DNA of 6,295 bases. Origin: Pseudomonadota bacterium (lineage in GTDB: Bacteria > Pseudomonadota > Alphaproteobacteria > Acetobacterales > Acetobacteraceae). Of this stretch, positions 1-6,295 are shown piece by piece. Location: the NCBI GenBank assembly GCA_021845835.1, contig JAJZVE010000289.1:1-6295 (forward strand). Direction: 5' to 3'. Numbering within the stretch: the first letter of the stretch is position 1; each line of letters opens with the position of its first letter. The notes beneath the pieces are model-generated. The model saw only the letters and a program-made list of their open reading frames with translations. It made no database searches and was not told the DNA's origin. Position numbers and translations under genes: made by a program.

Positions 1-390
1 GCCGGCCGCCTGGGCGCTACGAGGGCAAAGACCATCCGGCGCAGGAAGGCAGCTTCCGGCGTCCCGCAGGGCGGCCGCATGGCCGATCCCGATCTCCCTC
101 CTGCAACAGCATCACGGTCACGAACCCCATATGCCCGCGTCTCCCCCTCGGAATGCGTGCGGTTTTAGGCCGGGCGCCGGCCGGCGAGGAAAGGGTGGGT
201 CCTCGCCATGCTCGCCATGCTCGCCGCAAGAGACGCGGCTGCGCGTGGCTGCGCGTGGCTGCGGTCCCGCGCCCAGCGGCGCGCCTTTCACGCCGGCCGC
301 CTAGTGCCCGGCCTGATCGAACCGCACCCGAGGGAGAACGACGCAGACATGGGGCCCGCGGACCTCTCGGGCAGTGAGAAAGATCAGATC
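1..390. other. Non-coding stretch with two short tandem repeats
   Basis: No gene can be supported here. The first ~165 bases are open in several frames because of high GC, but the translations are Arg/Pro/Gly-rich with no recognisable pattern. Two short tandem repeats are visible: a 9-bp unit CTCGCCATG at 202-210 and 211-219 with a partial third unit, and a 10-bp unit GCGCGTGGCT at 241-250 and 251-260 with partial units on both sides. Around 318-338 lies a leader-like stretch, CGAACCGCA followed by AGGGAG at 331-336, which may be the ribosome binding site of an earlier start (349) of the next gene. Confidence 0.5.
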
Positions 391-984
391 ATGGCCACGA
401 AGACCGCTCAGAAGACCGCTGCGAAGCCGGCTCCCCGCATTGCATCGTCCCGCCCGGCGATCACGCTGGCGCTCGTCGCCGCCCACGCCCCCACGGAGGT
501 CCACGCCGAGAAGATGTCCGCCGCCTTCGCGCTCGACCCGGTGGACTACCACGGCATCCGCGAGGCCACCGAGGAGCACATCGGCCTGTCCGCCAAGGTG
601 CTGCAGCCCACCGTCAACGACATCGCCATGCGCATCCACCTCCAGCGGGTGGTCGGCAGCTTCGTCAGCTCCGCGCACGGGGCGGCCAACTTCTACCAGA
701 CCAAGGTCTCCGACGCCCGCACCCTGACCGCCAGGCTCGCCAACGAAGACCGCGACGAGGACCGCGAGCCGATCTACGGGTTCGAGAGCAAGGCCGCCCG
801 CGCCCGGCAGTTCGCCGCCGAAGCCGGCCTCACCGCCTACGCCCTGCTCGCCGCCGCCGAGGGTGCGGTTCACGCCTACGCCGCCATCACCGGCGAGGAC
901 TGGAAGCCCTACGAGCCGCCGCCGGCCGCGCCCGCCTCGGCAAGCCGCCGGTCGGCCGAAGCCGAGATGGCCGCCTTCGGGTGA
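391..984 (+). CDS. Hypothetical alanine-rich helical protein, 197 aa
   Basis: I do not recognise a named family. The N-terminus (residues 1-22) is a basic Lys/Ala/Pro/Thr tail, as in many nucleic-acid-associated proteins. Residues about 24-170 look almost wholly alpha-helical, with conserved-looking segments around HAEKM, the acidic stretch NEDRDEDRE (residues ~115-123) and AAEGAVHAYAAITGEDWKPY (~155-174). The last ~23 residues are a Pro/Ala/Ser tail. There is no signal peptide, membrane segment or catalytic motif. The ATG at 391 is preferred because MATKTAQKTA is a typical cytoplasmic N-terminus and a weak GAGAAAG lies upstream. An in-frame ATG at 349 has a better AGGGAG (331-336) but with a long 12-nt spacing; it would add 14 residues. 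Codon use fits a real GC-rich gene, and a strong hairpin follows directly. The reading frame is secure and the function unknown. Confidence 0.75.
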   Translation: MATKTAQKTAAKPAPRIASSRPAITLALVAAHAPTEVHAEKMSAAFALDPVDYHGIREATEEHIGLSAKVLQPTVNDIAMRIHLQRVVGSFVSSAHGAANFYQTKVSDARTLTARLANEDRDEDREPIYGFESKAARARQFAAEAGLTAYALLAAAEGAVHAYAAITGEDWKPYEPPPAAPASASRRSAEAEMAAFG

Positions 985-1101: not shown

Positions 1102-1370
1102 CGACATCGGCGCACGAACCGCAGGGAGAAAGACCTCCACTGATCTCCCATTGTCACGCCGGTTAAGGTCGGGCCGGTTCAACCCCGCCTTCGGCGCCAC
1201 GCGAAGCCGCGCGGCTTCGGCACGCAACCTACGGCAGGGCCGGGCCGCGCCGGGCGCAGATCCCAAGCGATCCGCACCCGTCGCACCCCGGCCCCGCCCG
1301 GTTGCATATCTCAGGGGTTGAGCCGCCCCGAAGGCCGGCGTGCGCCGCTCCCGTCAGCAATCGGCTGGCA
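1102..1370 (+). repeat. Long direct repeat, copy 1, upstream of the DUF4326 gene
   Basis: This ~270-bp segment recurs at 1776-2048 in the same orientation, at roughly 90-93% identity by eye. The most conserved core runs from the stretch after CCGGTTCAACCCC through the 18-bp palindrome at 1202-1219 to the end at 1370. Indels between the copies are not all multiples of three (for example one extra base near 1163-1173), and the reading frame changes between copies, so it is not a coding repeat. It stops about 10 nt before the AGGAG at 1380-1384 that serves the DUF4326 start, so it acts as that gene's upstream or leader region. Confidence 0.9.
1175..1369 (+). promoter_or_regulatory. Candidate structured leader element, copy 1
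   Basis: Several pairings are visible. CGGTTCAACCCC (1175-1186) pairs with GGGGTTGAGCCG (1314-1325), 12 bp with one G-U. Inside are the palindrome CGAAGCCGCGCGGCTTCG (1202-1219), GCGC/GCGC (1247-1257), and GATC (1259-1262) with GATC (1269-1272) around loop CCAAGC. Downstream are CGGC/GCCG (1336-1347) and GTCAGC/GCTGGC around AATCG (1353-1369), the last ending 10 nt before the ribosome binding site. In the second copy the GATC stem becomes GACC/GGTC with pairing kept. It could be a structured 5' leader, an independent RNA or a single-stranded-DNA recombination site. I recognise no known riboswitch or RNA family. Confidence 0.4.
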
Positions 1371-1393
1371 GACAGACACAGGAGCAACAGACG

Positions 1394-1696
1394 ATGAGCA
1401 ATCTTCAGGCGTCGGAGCTAAGGGTTCTGAACAAGAAGCAACTGCACGGTTCGATCGCAAACACGGTCTACATCGGACGTCCGGGTATCTGGGGCAATCC
1501 GTTCGTCATCGGCAAGGACGGCACGCGCAGCGAGGTCATCGCGAAATACGAAGCGTGGGTCGTGCAGCAACCGAATCTGATGGCGCGGCTACAGGAGCTA
1601 CGCGGCAAGCATCTGGTGTGCTGGTGCGCACCGGCATCGTGCCACGGCGACGTGCTGATCAGGCTCGCGAACAGCACGCAACGGCGGTGCGAATAA
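1394..1696 (+). CDS. DUF4326-type protein, 100 aa
   Basis: The protein has the pattern I associate with DUF4326, a family of ~100-residue proteins common in phages and plasmids. VYIGRPGIWGNPF lies at residues 25-37, followed by a basic/Ser-Glu segment, then ELRGKHLVCWCAPASCHGDVL at 68-88 with three cysteines (76, 78, 83) and His84. The Cys/His cluster suggests a metal- or nucleotide-binding site, but the biochemical role of the family is not established to my knowledge. The ATG at 1394 is chosen because AGGAG (1380-1384) lies 9 nt upstream and the GR.G.WGNPF block then sits at its usual distance from the N-terminus; an earlier in-frame ATG at 1340 falls inside the upstream repeat. It is transcribed alone behind the 1102-1370 element. 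Family assignment is from remembered motifs, not a search. Confidence 0.88.
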   Translation: MSNLQASELRVLNKKQLHGSIANTVYIGRPGIWGNPFVIGKDGTRSEVIAKYEAWVVQQPNLMARLQELRGKHLVCWCAPASCHGDVLIRLANSTQRRCE

Positions 1697-1706
1697 TCGG
1701 CACATG

Positions 1707-1724
1707 GGGCGGCCGGCACCGCCC
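1707..1724 (+). terminator. Short GC hairpin after the DUF4326 gene
   Basis: GGGCGG, loop CCGGCA, CCGCCC forms a 6-bp stem 10 nt after the stop codon at 1694-1696. There is no T-tract, so termination is uncertain. Its position matches the hairpins found after the other plus-strand genes. Confidence 0.35.
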
Positions 1725-1775
1725 TGACCAGCCGCTCGCGCGCGGGCACCACGCCGCGCCGGCCTCCTTCCCGCA

Positions 1776-2048
1776 CGACACCGGCGCCCGAACCGCACGG
1801 AGAAAGAGCGCCTCCACTGACGTCCCATTGTCACGCCGGCCAAGGGTCGCGCCGGTTCAACCCCGCCTTCGGCGCCGCGCGAAGCCGCGCGGCTTCGGCA
1901 CGCAACCTACGGCAGGGCCAGGCCGCGCCGGGCGCAGACCCCAAGCGGTCCGCGCCCGTCGCACCCCGCCCCCGCCCGGTTGCATGCCTCAGGGGTTGAG
2001 CCGTCCCGAAGGCCGGCGTGCGCCGCTCCCGTCAGCAATCGGCTGGCA
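1776..2048 (+). repeat. Long direct repeat, copy 2, upstream of the 56-aa gene
   Basis: Second copy of the element at 1102-1370, same orientation, with about 20 substitutions and a few short indels. It ends 6 nt before the AAGGGAG (2055-2061) that serves the start at 2068. The gene between the two copies (DUF4326) and the gene after this copy are unrelated, so the element was duplicated without its gene, or different genes were placed behind it. The left edge is fuzzy by some 10-20 bp. Confidence 0.9.
1853..2047 (+). promoter_or_regulatory. Candidate structured leader element, copy 2
   Basis: The same pairings as in copy 1 are kept: CGGTTCAACCCC (1853-1864) with GGGGTTGAGCCG (1992-2003), the palindrome at 1880-1897, and GTCAGC/GCTGGC around AATCG (2031-2047). 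The small stem is GACC (1937-1940) with GGTC (1947-1950) around the unchanged loop CCAAGC, a T-A to C-G change relative to copy 1. The structure is inferred by eye; function is unknown. Confidence 0.4.
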
Positions 2049-2067
2049 TCCACCAAGGGAGCATACC

Positions 2068-2238
2068 ATGACCATCATCCGCTGCACCGACTGCGCGTTC
2101 GACAACGCCCGCATGACCGAAGCGGGCTACGACATCATCGCCATCGAGGCCTGGCGCTGGGACGACGGCGACACCGAGACCGAAATCCTCTGGGGGAAGG
2201 ACGAAGTCCCGATCGAGGCGAGCGAGGTGCCGTTCTGA
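2068..2238 (+). CDS. Small acidic hypothetical protein, 56 aa
   Basis: I do not recognise a family. The start is well supported: AAGGGAG at 2055-2061 with 6 nt spacing to the ATG. The protein starts with a Cys-x-x-Cys pair (Cys6, Cys9), followed by a mixed segment and a strongly acidic, Trp-containing second half (WRWDDGDTETEILWGKDEVP, residues 29-48). The Cys pair is isolated, so a full zinc ribbon is not formed by one chain. No membrane segment is present. The codon use is that of a genuine GC-rich gene, and a strong hairpin follows 10 nt after the stop. It lies behind the second copy of the duplicated leader and ahead of the Uma2 gene. Small acidic proteins next to nucleases can be inhibitors, but nothing here shows that. 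Confidence 0.72.
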   Translation: MTIIRCTDCAFDNARMTEAGYDIIAIEAWRWDDGDTETEILWGKDEVPIEASEVPF

Positions 2239-4499: not shown

Positions 4500-4661
4500 C
4501 CTCGGGGGGGTTGCTCGCCGCGGCGCTGTCCGCACCGCGCCGACGCGGTCGCATTGCCGACGATACATTGTCCATCCTTTTGGTCTCATGCGGGGCCACC
4601 CACCGGATCGCGCCGGTTTCACCGGCTACCCGCTGCGCACCCGCCAAGCGAGTCGCCGATC

Positions 4662-5206
4662 GGGTTGCATGCGGGATCGTTCGCCGGGTCACATAGGCTC
4701 CGCCGGCGCGGCGCTATGCATGTGCCGATCTGGCGCACGCTTGCTTGACCCGCGACAGCGTAATCGTATCGCCTCGGCCAGCACTACGCGACGAGCGTGC
4801 CAGGCGGCCTGCCTGTCCAGTCGCATGCTCAAGCACCAGCCGGGTTACATCGGCATGGCCGGCCGCATGTCTGGCTTCACCCCGGCGTCGCATGGCGCAG
4901 CGCCACGCGCGCCTCTGCAGTCGGTGACATGTCCGGCAGCATCGGGTCGCATGCAAGGTCGCAAAGCGCGCCGCTGCGCGCACCCGATCGGTCGGCATGG
5001 CCGGGACGTTGCATGCGTTCCGAGCGATCCGACCATCGGGTCGCATGCCGGTCACCTGCCGGGCCGCATCGCCGTCGCTGACGCGGCGGTACGCTCCCGT
5101 CCATGCGGTCGCACGGCCGGCCGCATGGCGGATCAGCTGCCAGTTCGCATCGCGTCCGCCGGCGCGGGCTGCACGCGCCAGGCGGCTTGCTCATCGGGTC
5201 GCATGC
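4662..5206 (+). repeat. Field of same-orientation GGGTCGCATG-like repeats
   Basis: ATCGGGTCGCATGC occurs exactly at 4941-4954, 5035-5048 and 5193-5206. Many degenerate relatives share the orientation, for example GGGTTGCATGC (4662), GTCGCATGC (4820), GGCCGCATG (4861), GTCGCATGG (4887), TTGCATGC (5009) and GGCCGCATGG (5119). GCATG occurs 12 times on this strand in ~560 bp, where well under one would be expected at this base composition. The copies at 5035 and 5193 remain similar for ~40 bp. Spacing is irregular (about 6 to 105 bp), so it is not a CRISPR array. The long plus-strand frame through it has no family likeness. Candidates are a partition centromere for the RHH-like protein upstream, or origin or transfer DNA. 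Positions 4500-4661 hold nothing I can name. Confidence 0.7.
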
Positions 5207-5319
5207 CCATCACTGCCCGGCTGCGTGATCCTGTGCCTCCGAGCGCCCGCTGGCCCCCCTTCCCCAGCCAGTATCCGGCCGGTCCCTTTCCCCTCCTCCG
5301 AAATGGCGTGACACGGGAT

Positions 5320-5336
5320 CCCCGCCTTTGGCGGGG
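5320..5336. terminator. Perfect GC hairpin
   Basis: CCCCGCC, loop TTT, GGCGGGG is a perfect 7-bp stem. No T-tract follows on either strand and no gene ends nearby, so its role is open. It lies between the two repeat fields and could insulate them. Confidence 0.35.
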
Positions 5337-5407
5337 CCCCTCCCCCTGAGATGCGCCAGAAGCGCGCACACCCCACGCACGCCCGTGCTGCGCAATCGTC
5401 CCGATCC

Positions 5408-5771
5408 TCGTCTTACGCGATACCCGATGGCGCGCTAACCAATTGATGCCAGGCTGGTTTTTTGTATCCTCTTGCGTCTTACGGCCGTTTGAGGCGTCTT
5501 ACGCTCGTCCTGCGGCGTAAGACATCCGTCTCATGCTTGCACAGCGACGCCAGCCGCTGATGCCCAACCCATTGTTATTGCCCGCCAACCTTCGGGGCGA
5601 CAGGGCGTCGGTTGCGACTTGCGTGATATCCGTGATCGAAAGGTTTGCTTGTGCTCTGTAAGACGCTGGCGAATACATAGTCTACACTTGTGCAAGGATA
5701 ATATTTTGCGGTTTCCGCGGCCGGCGGTCTCCCTGGACATGTCTTACGTCTGATTTCTACGGCGTCTTACG
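5408..5771. repeat. Iteron-like cluster of GCGTCTTACG; candidate origin or partition site
   Basis: Exact GCGTCTTACG occurs at 5474-5483, 5494-5503 and 5762-5771. Near copies are TCGTCTTACG (5408-5417) and ATGTCTTACG (5739-5748) in the same orientation, and CGTAAGACAT (5516-5525) and TGTAAGACGC (5657-5666) inverted. Starts at 5408, 5474, 5494 and 5516 differ by 66, 20 and 22 bp, and 5739 to 5762 by 23 bp, close to multiples of two helical turns. The segment is the only AT-richer part of the window (for example around 5441-5470 and 5690-5710). Repeats, phasing and AT-richness are the usual marks of an iteron origin, but no Rep gene or certain DnaA box is visible. A partition site or an operator for the RHH-like gene at 5966 are alternatives. 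Confidence 0.65.
5443..5470 (+). promoter_or_regulatory. Weak sigma70-like promoter inside the GCGTCTTACG cluster
   Basis: TTGATG (5443-5448) and TATCCT (5465-5470) are 16 bp apart, each matching consensus at 4 of 6. Repeats at 5474 and 5494 would lie at and just after the transcription start, where a bound protein would repress. No gene follows closely, so this would drive a long leader or a small RNA. The T-run at 5458-5463 after AACCA/TGGTT pairing (5437-5441 with 5455-5459) could instead be a poor terminator. Confidence 0.25.
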
Positions 5772-5965
5772 CCAGCTTTCTCTTTTGGTTCGCCGTTGCG
5801 GTTGCCGCAGGGATCAGGCCGCTTCCGGCAGCCCCACGACGCCCCTCCTGGAACACAATCACCCGGCGAAAACCGGAATTCCTCGCACTTTTGCCAGCCC
5901 TCGGCACAGACGGCCACCAATCCCGGCGCGACACTCCGCCCCCGTTACAACCAGCGGGGCACGCC

Positions 5966-6295
5966 ATGGGAACCGCGATTTCCAGCGATGACGCCATGCC
6001 GACCCTCACCTTCCGGCTGCCGTCCGAACTCAAGGAGAGGCTCCAGCAACACGCCACCAGAGACGGCAAACCCGCCACCACGCTCGCCCGCGAATGGCTC
6101 GCGCAGCGGCTCGAGCAGTTGGACAGCGGGACGGCGACACCCTCGGACAGCAGCTCAACGACAGCTCGCGGCCAGGCCAAGGGTGCCATCGATCCGGCGA
6201 TCCTCAACGCCCTGCGCGACCTCCTGACCGCCGTCCATGCCAGCGCCGAGGAGACCAGAACCGCGCTGCGCATGCACGACGCGATGATGCGCCAA
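5966..6295 (+). CDS. Ribbon-helix-helix-like DNA-binding protein, 5' part (110 aa seen)
   Basis: The frame is open from the ATG at 5966 to the end of the window without a stop, so the gene is cut off. Residues 13-19 (TLTFRLP) fit the RHH strand, 20-34 (SELKERLQQHATRDG) helix A and 36-52 (PATTLAREWLAQRLEQL) helix B, a close match to the CopG/Arc/MetJ-type pattern. A Ser/Thr/Ala linker (53-75) follows, then a probable long helix from IDPAILNALRDLL onwards that looks coiled-coil-forming. An alternative in-frame start at 5996 would begin directly at MPTLTFRLP; neither start has a strong ribosome binding site (AGCGGGG lies before 5966). It sits 195 bp after the last GCGTCTTACG copy. RHH plus helical tail is common in plasmid mobilisation accessory and regulatory proteins, but the missing 3' side and downstream gene are needed to tell. 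Confidence 0.75.
   Translation, partial: MGTAISSDDAMPTLTFRLPSELKERLQQHATRDGKPATTLAREWLAQRLEQLDSGTATPSDSSSTTARGQAKGAIDPAILNALRDLLTAVHASAEETRTALRMHDAMMRQ

Follow-up and report, generated by a model that had tools for sequence, protein, structure and literature searches.

The window analysed here, a stretch of 6,295 nucleotides from an alphaproteobacterium of the Acetobacteraceae (contig JAJZVE010000289.1), carries one non-coding leader twice, once in front of a DUF4326 gene and once in front of a gene for a 56-residue acidic protein. We consider it likely that this duplicated leader is a promoter that works on single-stranded DNA in the manner of the Frpo promoters of the F plasmid, and that it belongs to a new, alphaproteobacterial class. 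We infer that the window probably lies in the region that enters first during conjugation, on a plasmid of the Alphaproteobacteria and likely of the Acetobacteraceae.

The plasmid would enter the recipient as a single strand, and its bottom strand, which is the template of the downstream genes, would fold into a long hairpin with imperfect pairing. From one side of it would come a -35 element (TTGAAC, within a stem here named P2) together with an unpaired -10 element (GACAAT) 18 nt along the paired arm, while the other side would supply the template. Host RNA polymerase, if it recognises these elements, would start near the base of the hairpin, at about 1353-1356 and 2031-2034 as worked out by hand, and the gene for DUF4326 or for the small protein with an SSB-like tail would be transcribed before second-strand synthesis. 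Once the DNA became double-stranded the hairpin would be gone and the promoter would be off. We favour a promoter confined to single-stranded DNA, rather than an RNA leader or an ordinary promoter, because the helices covary, because the side carrying the -35 and -10 faces away from the gene, and because the helical spacing is constant where the strand spacing varies.

The duplicated leader and its fold

Global alignment of 1102-1370 with 1776-2048 gives 273 columns, made up of 252 matches, 17 mismatches and 4 gap columns, which corresponds to 93.7% identity over aligned bases and 92.3% over columns. The copies differ by two indels, of 3 nt and 1 nt, and a 204-nt part (1167-1370 and 1845-2048) aligns without gaps at 95% identity. 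The duplication of about 270 bp described in the original prediction is thus confirmed at 92-94% identity, as is its statement that each copy ends close to a ribosome binding site: the repeat ends about 10 nt from AGGAG and GGGAG, as read off the sequence, and 23 and 19 nt from the ATG of the DUF4326 gene and the 56-residue open reading frame, respectively. The two genes are indeed unrelated, since the first product belongs to PF14216, the second has no Pfam match, and BLASTP yields no alignment between them. The near-identity of the copies makes the duplication or conversion look recent, as would suit an untranslated region that has no function of its own and was spread by recombination; that explanation is contradicted by the covariation described below, diverged copies showing compensatory changes together with promoter bases that do not vary, and we give it almost no credence.

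Folded as single-stranded DNA, the bottom strand is far more stable than expected in copy 1 (1137-1370; z = -6.3) and copy 2 (1815-2048; z = -6.7), with none of 200 shuffles equally stable in either case, and a third, related hairpin (145-345) gives z = -5.8. The pattern formed by the two P2 arms occurs twice in the window against 0.00 expected (200 shuffles). The evolutionary evidence comes from an alignment of 18 leader copies, built without reference to structure, in which the two window copies are joined by relatives cited here by locus number: L001, L003, L033, L088-L097, L101, L104 and L106. The outer stem P1 and stem P2 are paired in 93.1% of the cells of this alignment, and 8 of their 21 pairs have changed on both sides, a number reached in none of 500 shuffles; for P1 alone the figure is 6 of 10 pairs. 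Structures with slid partners pair in only 21-46% of cells, a comparison in which the proposed structure has the advantage of having been derived from the same 18 sequences.

Which strand is the functional one? The fold alone cannot choose, because the complementary strand folds too, and a structured RNA leader, resembling a riboswitch or attenuator and controlling translation or termination from within the sense transcript, was the idea with which we began. It would account for a strong covarying hairpin close to the start codon, and a conserved U.G pair in P2 (13/17 copies), with another in the conserved core of related hairpins, fits it as well. Half-compensated changes, however, show no preference for G.U: A.C outnumbers G.U by 93 to 52 in the core family's outer stems, the two are near parity in the leader class (17 and 16) and equal in apical stems (1 and 1), an earlier G.U count of 21 to 0 having included a conserved core position. 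The binomial p of 0.0008 is merely indicative because the sequences are related; the mismatch pattern gives the sense strand no preference. Nor do we find a good sense promoter within the leaders, and an Rfam search covering the window returned no match up to an E value of 5. The leaders thus share with Rfam cis-regulatory RNAs a covarying structured sequence just before genes, and differ from them in lacking a family match in the window, in bearing their promoter bases on the other strand and in mismatches that do not favour the sense strand. An RNA leader also leaves the invariant -10 on the opposite strand and its constant spacing unexplained. The sense-strand reading was dropped on the mismatch count and the -10 results, and we now regard it as distinctly unlikely.

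Promoter elements on the bottom strand

The best sigma70-like promoter scores of the two leaders are 8.4 and 8.4 on the bottom strand, compared with 4.4 and 3.4 on the sense strand, and the -10 of copy 1 belongs to the best such match of its leader on either strand. Across all 17 aligned copies that cover the -10, A(-11) and T(-7) are invariant. Ten hexamers occur there (GACAAT, GATAAT, TATAAT, TAGAAT, TACACT, TAAACT, TACTCT, TAGACT, GACCAT and CAGGCT), TATAAT being that of L096. The -35, TTGAAC or similar, lies in P2. Counted on the strand, the spacer is 20, 21 or 22 nt. Counted along the 3' arm, which is paired, it is 18 nt in all but one of the 15 copies that were parsed (14 of 15) and 19 nt in L104 (L001 and L106 are unparsed and L101 has no 5' flank). 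The 3'-arm spacing stays constant despite the variation on the strand because a variable bulge in the 5' arm absorbs the difference. A promoter formed by the -35 and -10 in double-stranded DNA would face away from the gene, and in the leader class its spacer would be long; in the folded bottom strand the two elements point towards the gene. The -10 would already be open in the fold, because the opposite arm is non-complementary (GCGCCG in the window).

These elements might instead form an ordinary double-stranded promoter directed to the left, away from the gene; in many copies of the core family the -35 and -10 are indeed 15-19 nt apart. The leader class, with 20-22 nt, has a spacing unusual for sigma70. 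Such a promoter would also mostly have no gene to transcribe, because 12 of 16 relatives have their upstream gene on the sense strand, and it would not need a covarying hairpin; we hold it to be very improbable.

The same signal is present statistically in a wider family of hairpins, described below, that share a conserved core. Scored with a simple -10 weight table made for this analysis, 42 non-redundant anchored copies, drawn from 56 core copies, reach 1.59 at 14-22 nt past the TTG of P2, compared with -1.76 in shuffled sequences (standard deviation 0.52), and none of 300 shuffles does as well. There is no enrichment 23-40 nt out from the TTG (76 and 214 of 300 shuffles as high), none in the 39 copies scored for the sense 3' flank (131 of 300), and the reversed control strand scores within the shuffles (105 of 300).

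Table 1. Positions of the leaders, hairpins, promoter elements and genes in the window
Feature	Position	Strand	Remarks
Leader copy 1	1130..1393	+	Directly 5' of DUF4326 (1394-1696); 92-94% identity to copy 2
Leader copy 2	1807..2067	+	Directly 5' of the 56-residue gene (2068-2238); one of 18 aligned copies, 16 of them from outside the window
P1, 5' arm, copy 1	1155..1164	+	Pairs with 1333-1342; two G.U pairs in copy 1
P1, 3' arm, copy 1	1333..1342	+	Covariation
P2, 5' arm, copy 1, GGTTCAACCCC	1176..1186	+	Pairs with 1314-1324
P2, 3' arm, copy 1, GGGGTTGAGCC	1314..1324	+	Arm pattern and covariation
P1, 5' arm, copy 2	1832..1841	+	Pairs with 2011-2020
P1, 3' arm, copy 2	2011..2020	+	Fold and covariation
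P2, 5' arm, copy 2	1854..1864	+	Pairs with 1992-2002
P2, 3' arm, copy 2	1992..2002	+	Arm pattern and fold
-10 GACAAT, copy 1	1150..1155	-	Just outside P1, sharing its first base with the end of the stem
-35 TTGAAC, copy 1	1177..1182	-	Inside P2; spacer 21 nt on the strand, 18 nt along the 3' arm
-10 GACAAT, copy 2	1827..1832	-	5' flank, bottom strand
-35 TTGAAC, copy 2	1855..1860	-	Spacer 22 nt on the strand, 18 nt along the 3' arm
Third, related hairpin	about 150..345	+	Conserved core 194-269; precedes the 197-residue gene; core common to alphaproteobacterial plasmids
-35-like TTTCCT, third hairpin	187-192	-	Weak; promoter scan
-10-like TAAAAC, third hairpin	162-167	-	Promoter scan
197-residue protein	391..984	+	No Pfam match; behind the third hairpin
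DUF4326 protein	1394..1696	+	PF14216, E 6e-27; behind copy 1
56-residue acidic protein	2068..2238	+	No Pfam match; ends SEVPF (SSB-tail-like); behind copy 2

Related leaders, their genes and their plasmids

The leader is not unique to the window. A plasmid search finds part of it on two Rhodovastum atsumiense plasmids, directly 5' of a 56-residue protein with 59% identity to that of the window. Among 397 genomes (the family of Roseomonas E05, taken as Acetobacteraceae), blastn gives a match in 97 at E values up to 0.001, most of them short and near the threshold, and 24 places have E below 1e-6. L106, which is in the alignment, has E 7e-6 and matches at 72% over most of the Rhodovastum leader. 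The alignment leaves aside L002 and L100 (near-identical to L001); L098, represented by its 3' part alone; L099, whose match is split into several pieces; L102 and L103, whose matches are short; and secondary places, which were not fetched.

In 17 of the 18 aligned copies the leader is followed, on the same strand and within about 20 nt of the end of the match, by a gene for a small protein, which where complete has 50-66 residues and carries a net charge of -1 to -10; L098 and L099 have a small protein behind the leader as well. The only other partner is the DUF4326 gene behind copy 1 of the window, a pairing seen in none of the other copies examined. A motif [LVI]-P-[FY] beside acidic residues ends 15 of the 17 small proteins; of the remaining two, that of L097 is cut by the end of the locus and that of L106 is also cut, with the motif internal to the gene call. 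We term this ending an SSB-like tail because the Roseomonas mucosa SSB, which is encoded behind a related hairpin, ends in DDDIPF. In L003 and L033 the rest of the small protein looks different and the tail is the same. The 56-residue protein of the window has 26 database homologues, and 11 of the 12 that were fetched end in P-[FYW], with P0023 as the exception. The small net-negative proteins of the window (2068-2238) and of L001, L003, L033 and L088-L104 are possibly mimics of the SSB tail.

In L088-L090 and L097 a different long hairpin-like region (GCGACTTTCTT ... AAGAAAGTCGC in L088, for example) stands 5' of a DUF736-type gene, assigned to PF05284 in L090, which was tested, and similar by eye in L088, L089 and L097. 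Leading genes may each have a hairpin leader of their own.

The inner part of the leader found in Rhodovastum recurs in the third hairpin of the window, which was absent from the original prediction, and on many plasmids. This wider hairpin is found in 41 PLSDB records (E up to 0.001), in 30 stretches of genome contigs that are alphaproteobacterial by title (one titled only Proteobacteria) and in 2 viral contigs; the leader pattern itself has no match in viral contigs. The exact core pattern occurs in 18 of the 397 genomes of the family and in 1 of 385 across the class, namely the centre itself. By eye, the family combines the outer stem P1 and stem P2 with a small 3'-side hairpin, a core that is conserved (GGTGGGTCCTCGCCATGCTCG ... 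CTGCGCGTGGCTCCGGTCCCG) and an apical stem that varies; in the two leader copies of the window, other hairpins replace the core between the P2 arms. Two Paracoccus plasmids each carry three exact copies on a single strand, and both orientations occur on one Bradyrhizobium contig and one Siccirubricoccus contig. The core (window 205-255, for example) contains a conserved T.G pair and in some cases is doubled, its period of 10 nt (CATGCTCGCCATGCTCGC) being close to one turn of the helix; it looks like a protein-binding module. Homologues of the 197-residue protein encoded behind the third hairpin occur in L003, L130 and L131 (BLASTP, 47-59%) and, by eye, behind the same hairpin in L004, L005, L015, L035 and L080. 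A core-less variant, TTCAACCCCC ... CAGGGGTTTCC, was seen by eye at about 3080-3200 of L003, 5' of the Lichenicola homologue of that protein.

The downstream gene is on the same strand in 36 of the 49 core copies that have one called, within 400 nt in 31, and convergent in 13; a further 7 copies have no downstream gene called. Genes were called with a simple caller of our own, checked by eye against the L001 and L003 annotations, and it assigns the third hairpin of the window to DUF4326 because it starts the 197-residue gene too early. Pfam searches on 17 of the 36 same-strand genes identified SSB, ArdA, ArdC (two), Vsr, DUF3991/Toprim, AAA, YAcAr, DUF3768 and HigB, and gave no match at E 0.01 for 7 of the 17. 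Genes reported from the leading regions of plasmids include those for anti-restriction, SSB and toxin-antitoxin functions (PMC11541004), and ArdC is described as needed in recipients in another report (PMC7213743).

These data refine the idea of a modular cassette that places accessory genes under shared control. A non-coding expression element that moves between genes, often several to a plasmid and mostly a short distance before an accessory gene, is what we find; it is most likely neither an RNA leader nor an ordinary promoter, and its trigger is most likely single-strandedness during transfer. The exchange of genes behind the element is borne out by the wider hairpin family, whereas this particular leader keeps its small-protein partner in 17 of 18 aligned copies. 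Likewise, a link to gene starts holds in 18 of 18 copies of the leader class and not for the convergent minority of the wider family.

Where do the hairpins lie on their plasmids? A relaxase was found in 19 of the 22 plasmid records searched, with one further match, weak and below the cut-off, on Acetobacter pomorum pSH1. In 15 of the 19 the nearest hairpin points towards the relaxase, which is 5-8 kb ahead of it, and hairpin and relaxase share a strand in 10 of these 15 (two Rhodovastum plasmids, Lichenicola 1, two Roseomonas plasmids, Sphingobium, Shinella, Jeongeuplla and two Paracoccus plasmids, the latter being those with three hairpin copies each). Four more plasmids (Tritonibacter, Kozakia and two Acetobacter) have a far but same-strand relaxase, giving 14 of 19 overall. 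For the seven large plasmids of the near, same-strand group, the chance of a same-strand relaxase within 8 kb ahead is 1-4% each. The independent cases are fewer than the plasmids because several of these are close relatives, and for several plasmids only the best hairpin place was used, the second places on W03, W07 and W17 not all having been placed.

Several observations weigh against a promoter on single-stranded DNA in a leading region. The relaxase is on the opposite strand in 5 of the 19 plasmids (Skermanella and four Cereibacter), and the window itself yields no identified relaxase or origin of transfer (oriT). Downstream genes are convergent in 13 of 49 core copies, and 10 of 56 core copies lie inside a called gene, so that single gene assignments are rough. 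The sense strand also folds strongly. The -10 of the window lacks T at -12, the -35 of the third hairpin is weak, some copies of the wider family score poorly for the -10, and the complemented control strand is also raised, less so than the true one (-0.10 compared with -1.58; 0 of 300 shuffles). Finally, a scan for the published -35 and -10 of F Frpo gave no single clear promoter on the F hairpins.

The convergent copies bear also on a different role, that of a single-strand initiation site (ssi/sso) whose chief task is to prime second-strand synthesis and whose position near genes is incidental. Hairpins on the presumed transferred strand, several to a plasmid and some of them between convergent genes, are what such a site would lead one to expect, and the likeness lies in stem-loops on the entering strand, which ssi/sso sites use for priming; one report has Frpo doing both, priming and acting as a promoter (PMC7690428). 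The leaders differ from such sites in their tie to gene starts, a gene beginning right behind the leader on the same strand in all 18 aligned copies, and in their sigma70-like -35 and -10. A site chiefly for priming therefore seems to us unlikely. Core copies between convergent genes are seen in L017, L020, L021, L027, L036, L040 and others, several with similar flanks (GTGCTCG ... GGCGTCGGGACG), and a promoter for the neighbouring gene does not explain their role. In L004 (6200-6368) and L005 (4470-4600) an apparent ordinary promoter of TTGAGT/ATAATA type was seen by eye between hairpin and gene, and these genes may have two promoters.

Some further features were noted. In the window, 4500-5965 comprises 1.4 kb without a called gene, within which GTCTTACG is repeated at 5410, 5476, 5496, 5741 and 5764 and inverted at 5516, and the motif GG[CGT][CT]GCATG occurs at six places from 4663 to 5197; this stretch may hold an oriT, a vegetative replication origin (oriV) or a partition site. 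The last gene of the window, 3' of the gene-free stretch (5966-6295), is a weak ribbon-helix-helix match. Compared with genes near relaxases it gave one weak match (E 0.007) and no clear homologue, and we therefore claim no oriT in the window. L006 (Sphingobium CAP-1 p2; 20.8 kb) appears to be a 10.4-kb plasmid in dimeric form, with the same genes repeated in order, and at 36699-36878 of L012 a 59-residue hypothetical gene bears the PLSDB label of a vanX resistance gene, which looks doubtful.

Comparison with Frpo and implications

Of the known systems, the F Frpo promoters resemble the preferred reading, a promoter on single-stranded DNA, most directly. On the F record the two Frpo regions are 89% identical over 559 columns and stand before unrelated leading genes, just as the two leaders of the window do before theirs. 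On the F map, most of the leading genes share a strand and are oriented towards oriT. In both cases a single strand folds, or would fold, into a stem-loop with -10 and -35 boxes, and ssb is among the genes driven in F. In the window, all three hairpins fold on the template strand of the downstream genes, with the stability and, for the leaders, the covariation given above; gene-directed -35 and -10 elements are present in the leader class and, statistically, in the wider family; and SSB, ArdA, ArdC, Vsr, DUF3991 and other genes lie behind related copies as their putative targets. The window element differs in being GC-rich and alphaproteobacterial, with an exchangeable inner part and with an unpaired -10 outside a short covarying stem. 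A blastn comparison of five leaders with F Frpo1 and Frpo2 gave three matches of 14-17 nt, the best at E 0.003, and as a clear sequence relation is missing we class the element as working like Frpo rather than as its homologue. For F itself, one report describes a single strand folding into a stem-loop that rebuilds the -10 and -35 boxes, Frpo1 and Frpo2 as 92% identical before different leading genes, and the loss of the early signal on deletion of Frpo1/Frpo2 (PMC9849209).

No paper among the literature matches listed describes such elements in Alphaproteobacteria, and the word alphaproteobacteria is absent from the main text of two Frpo surveys, which, in the sections available to us, began from five known Frpo/ssi sequences and candidates from a few islands (PMC11541004, PMC12826799). 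We see an even chance that the Alphaproteobacteria have independently evolved a class of single-stranded DNA promoters, marked by a -10 that is melted in advance and lies beyond a short covarying stem, by a bulge holding the helical spacing fixed and by an exchangeable inner hairpin. These would give recipients their first establishment proteins, among them a family of about 56 residues with SSB-like ends that may capture the partners of SSB and so damp the SOS response or recruit replication enzymes.

If this is true, switching genes on from the incoming single strand would be a more general plasmid strategy. The combination of a covarying stem, -35 and -10 elements on the bottom strand and a constant helical spacing would provide a rule by which to search for such promoters, and attention would be drawn to early plasmid genes of unknown function, such as those for the SSB-tail proteins and DUF4326.

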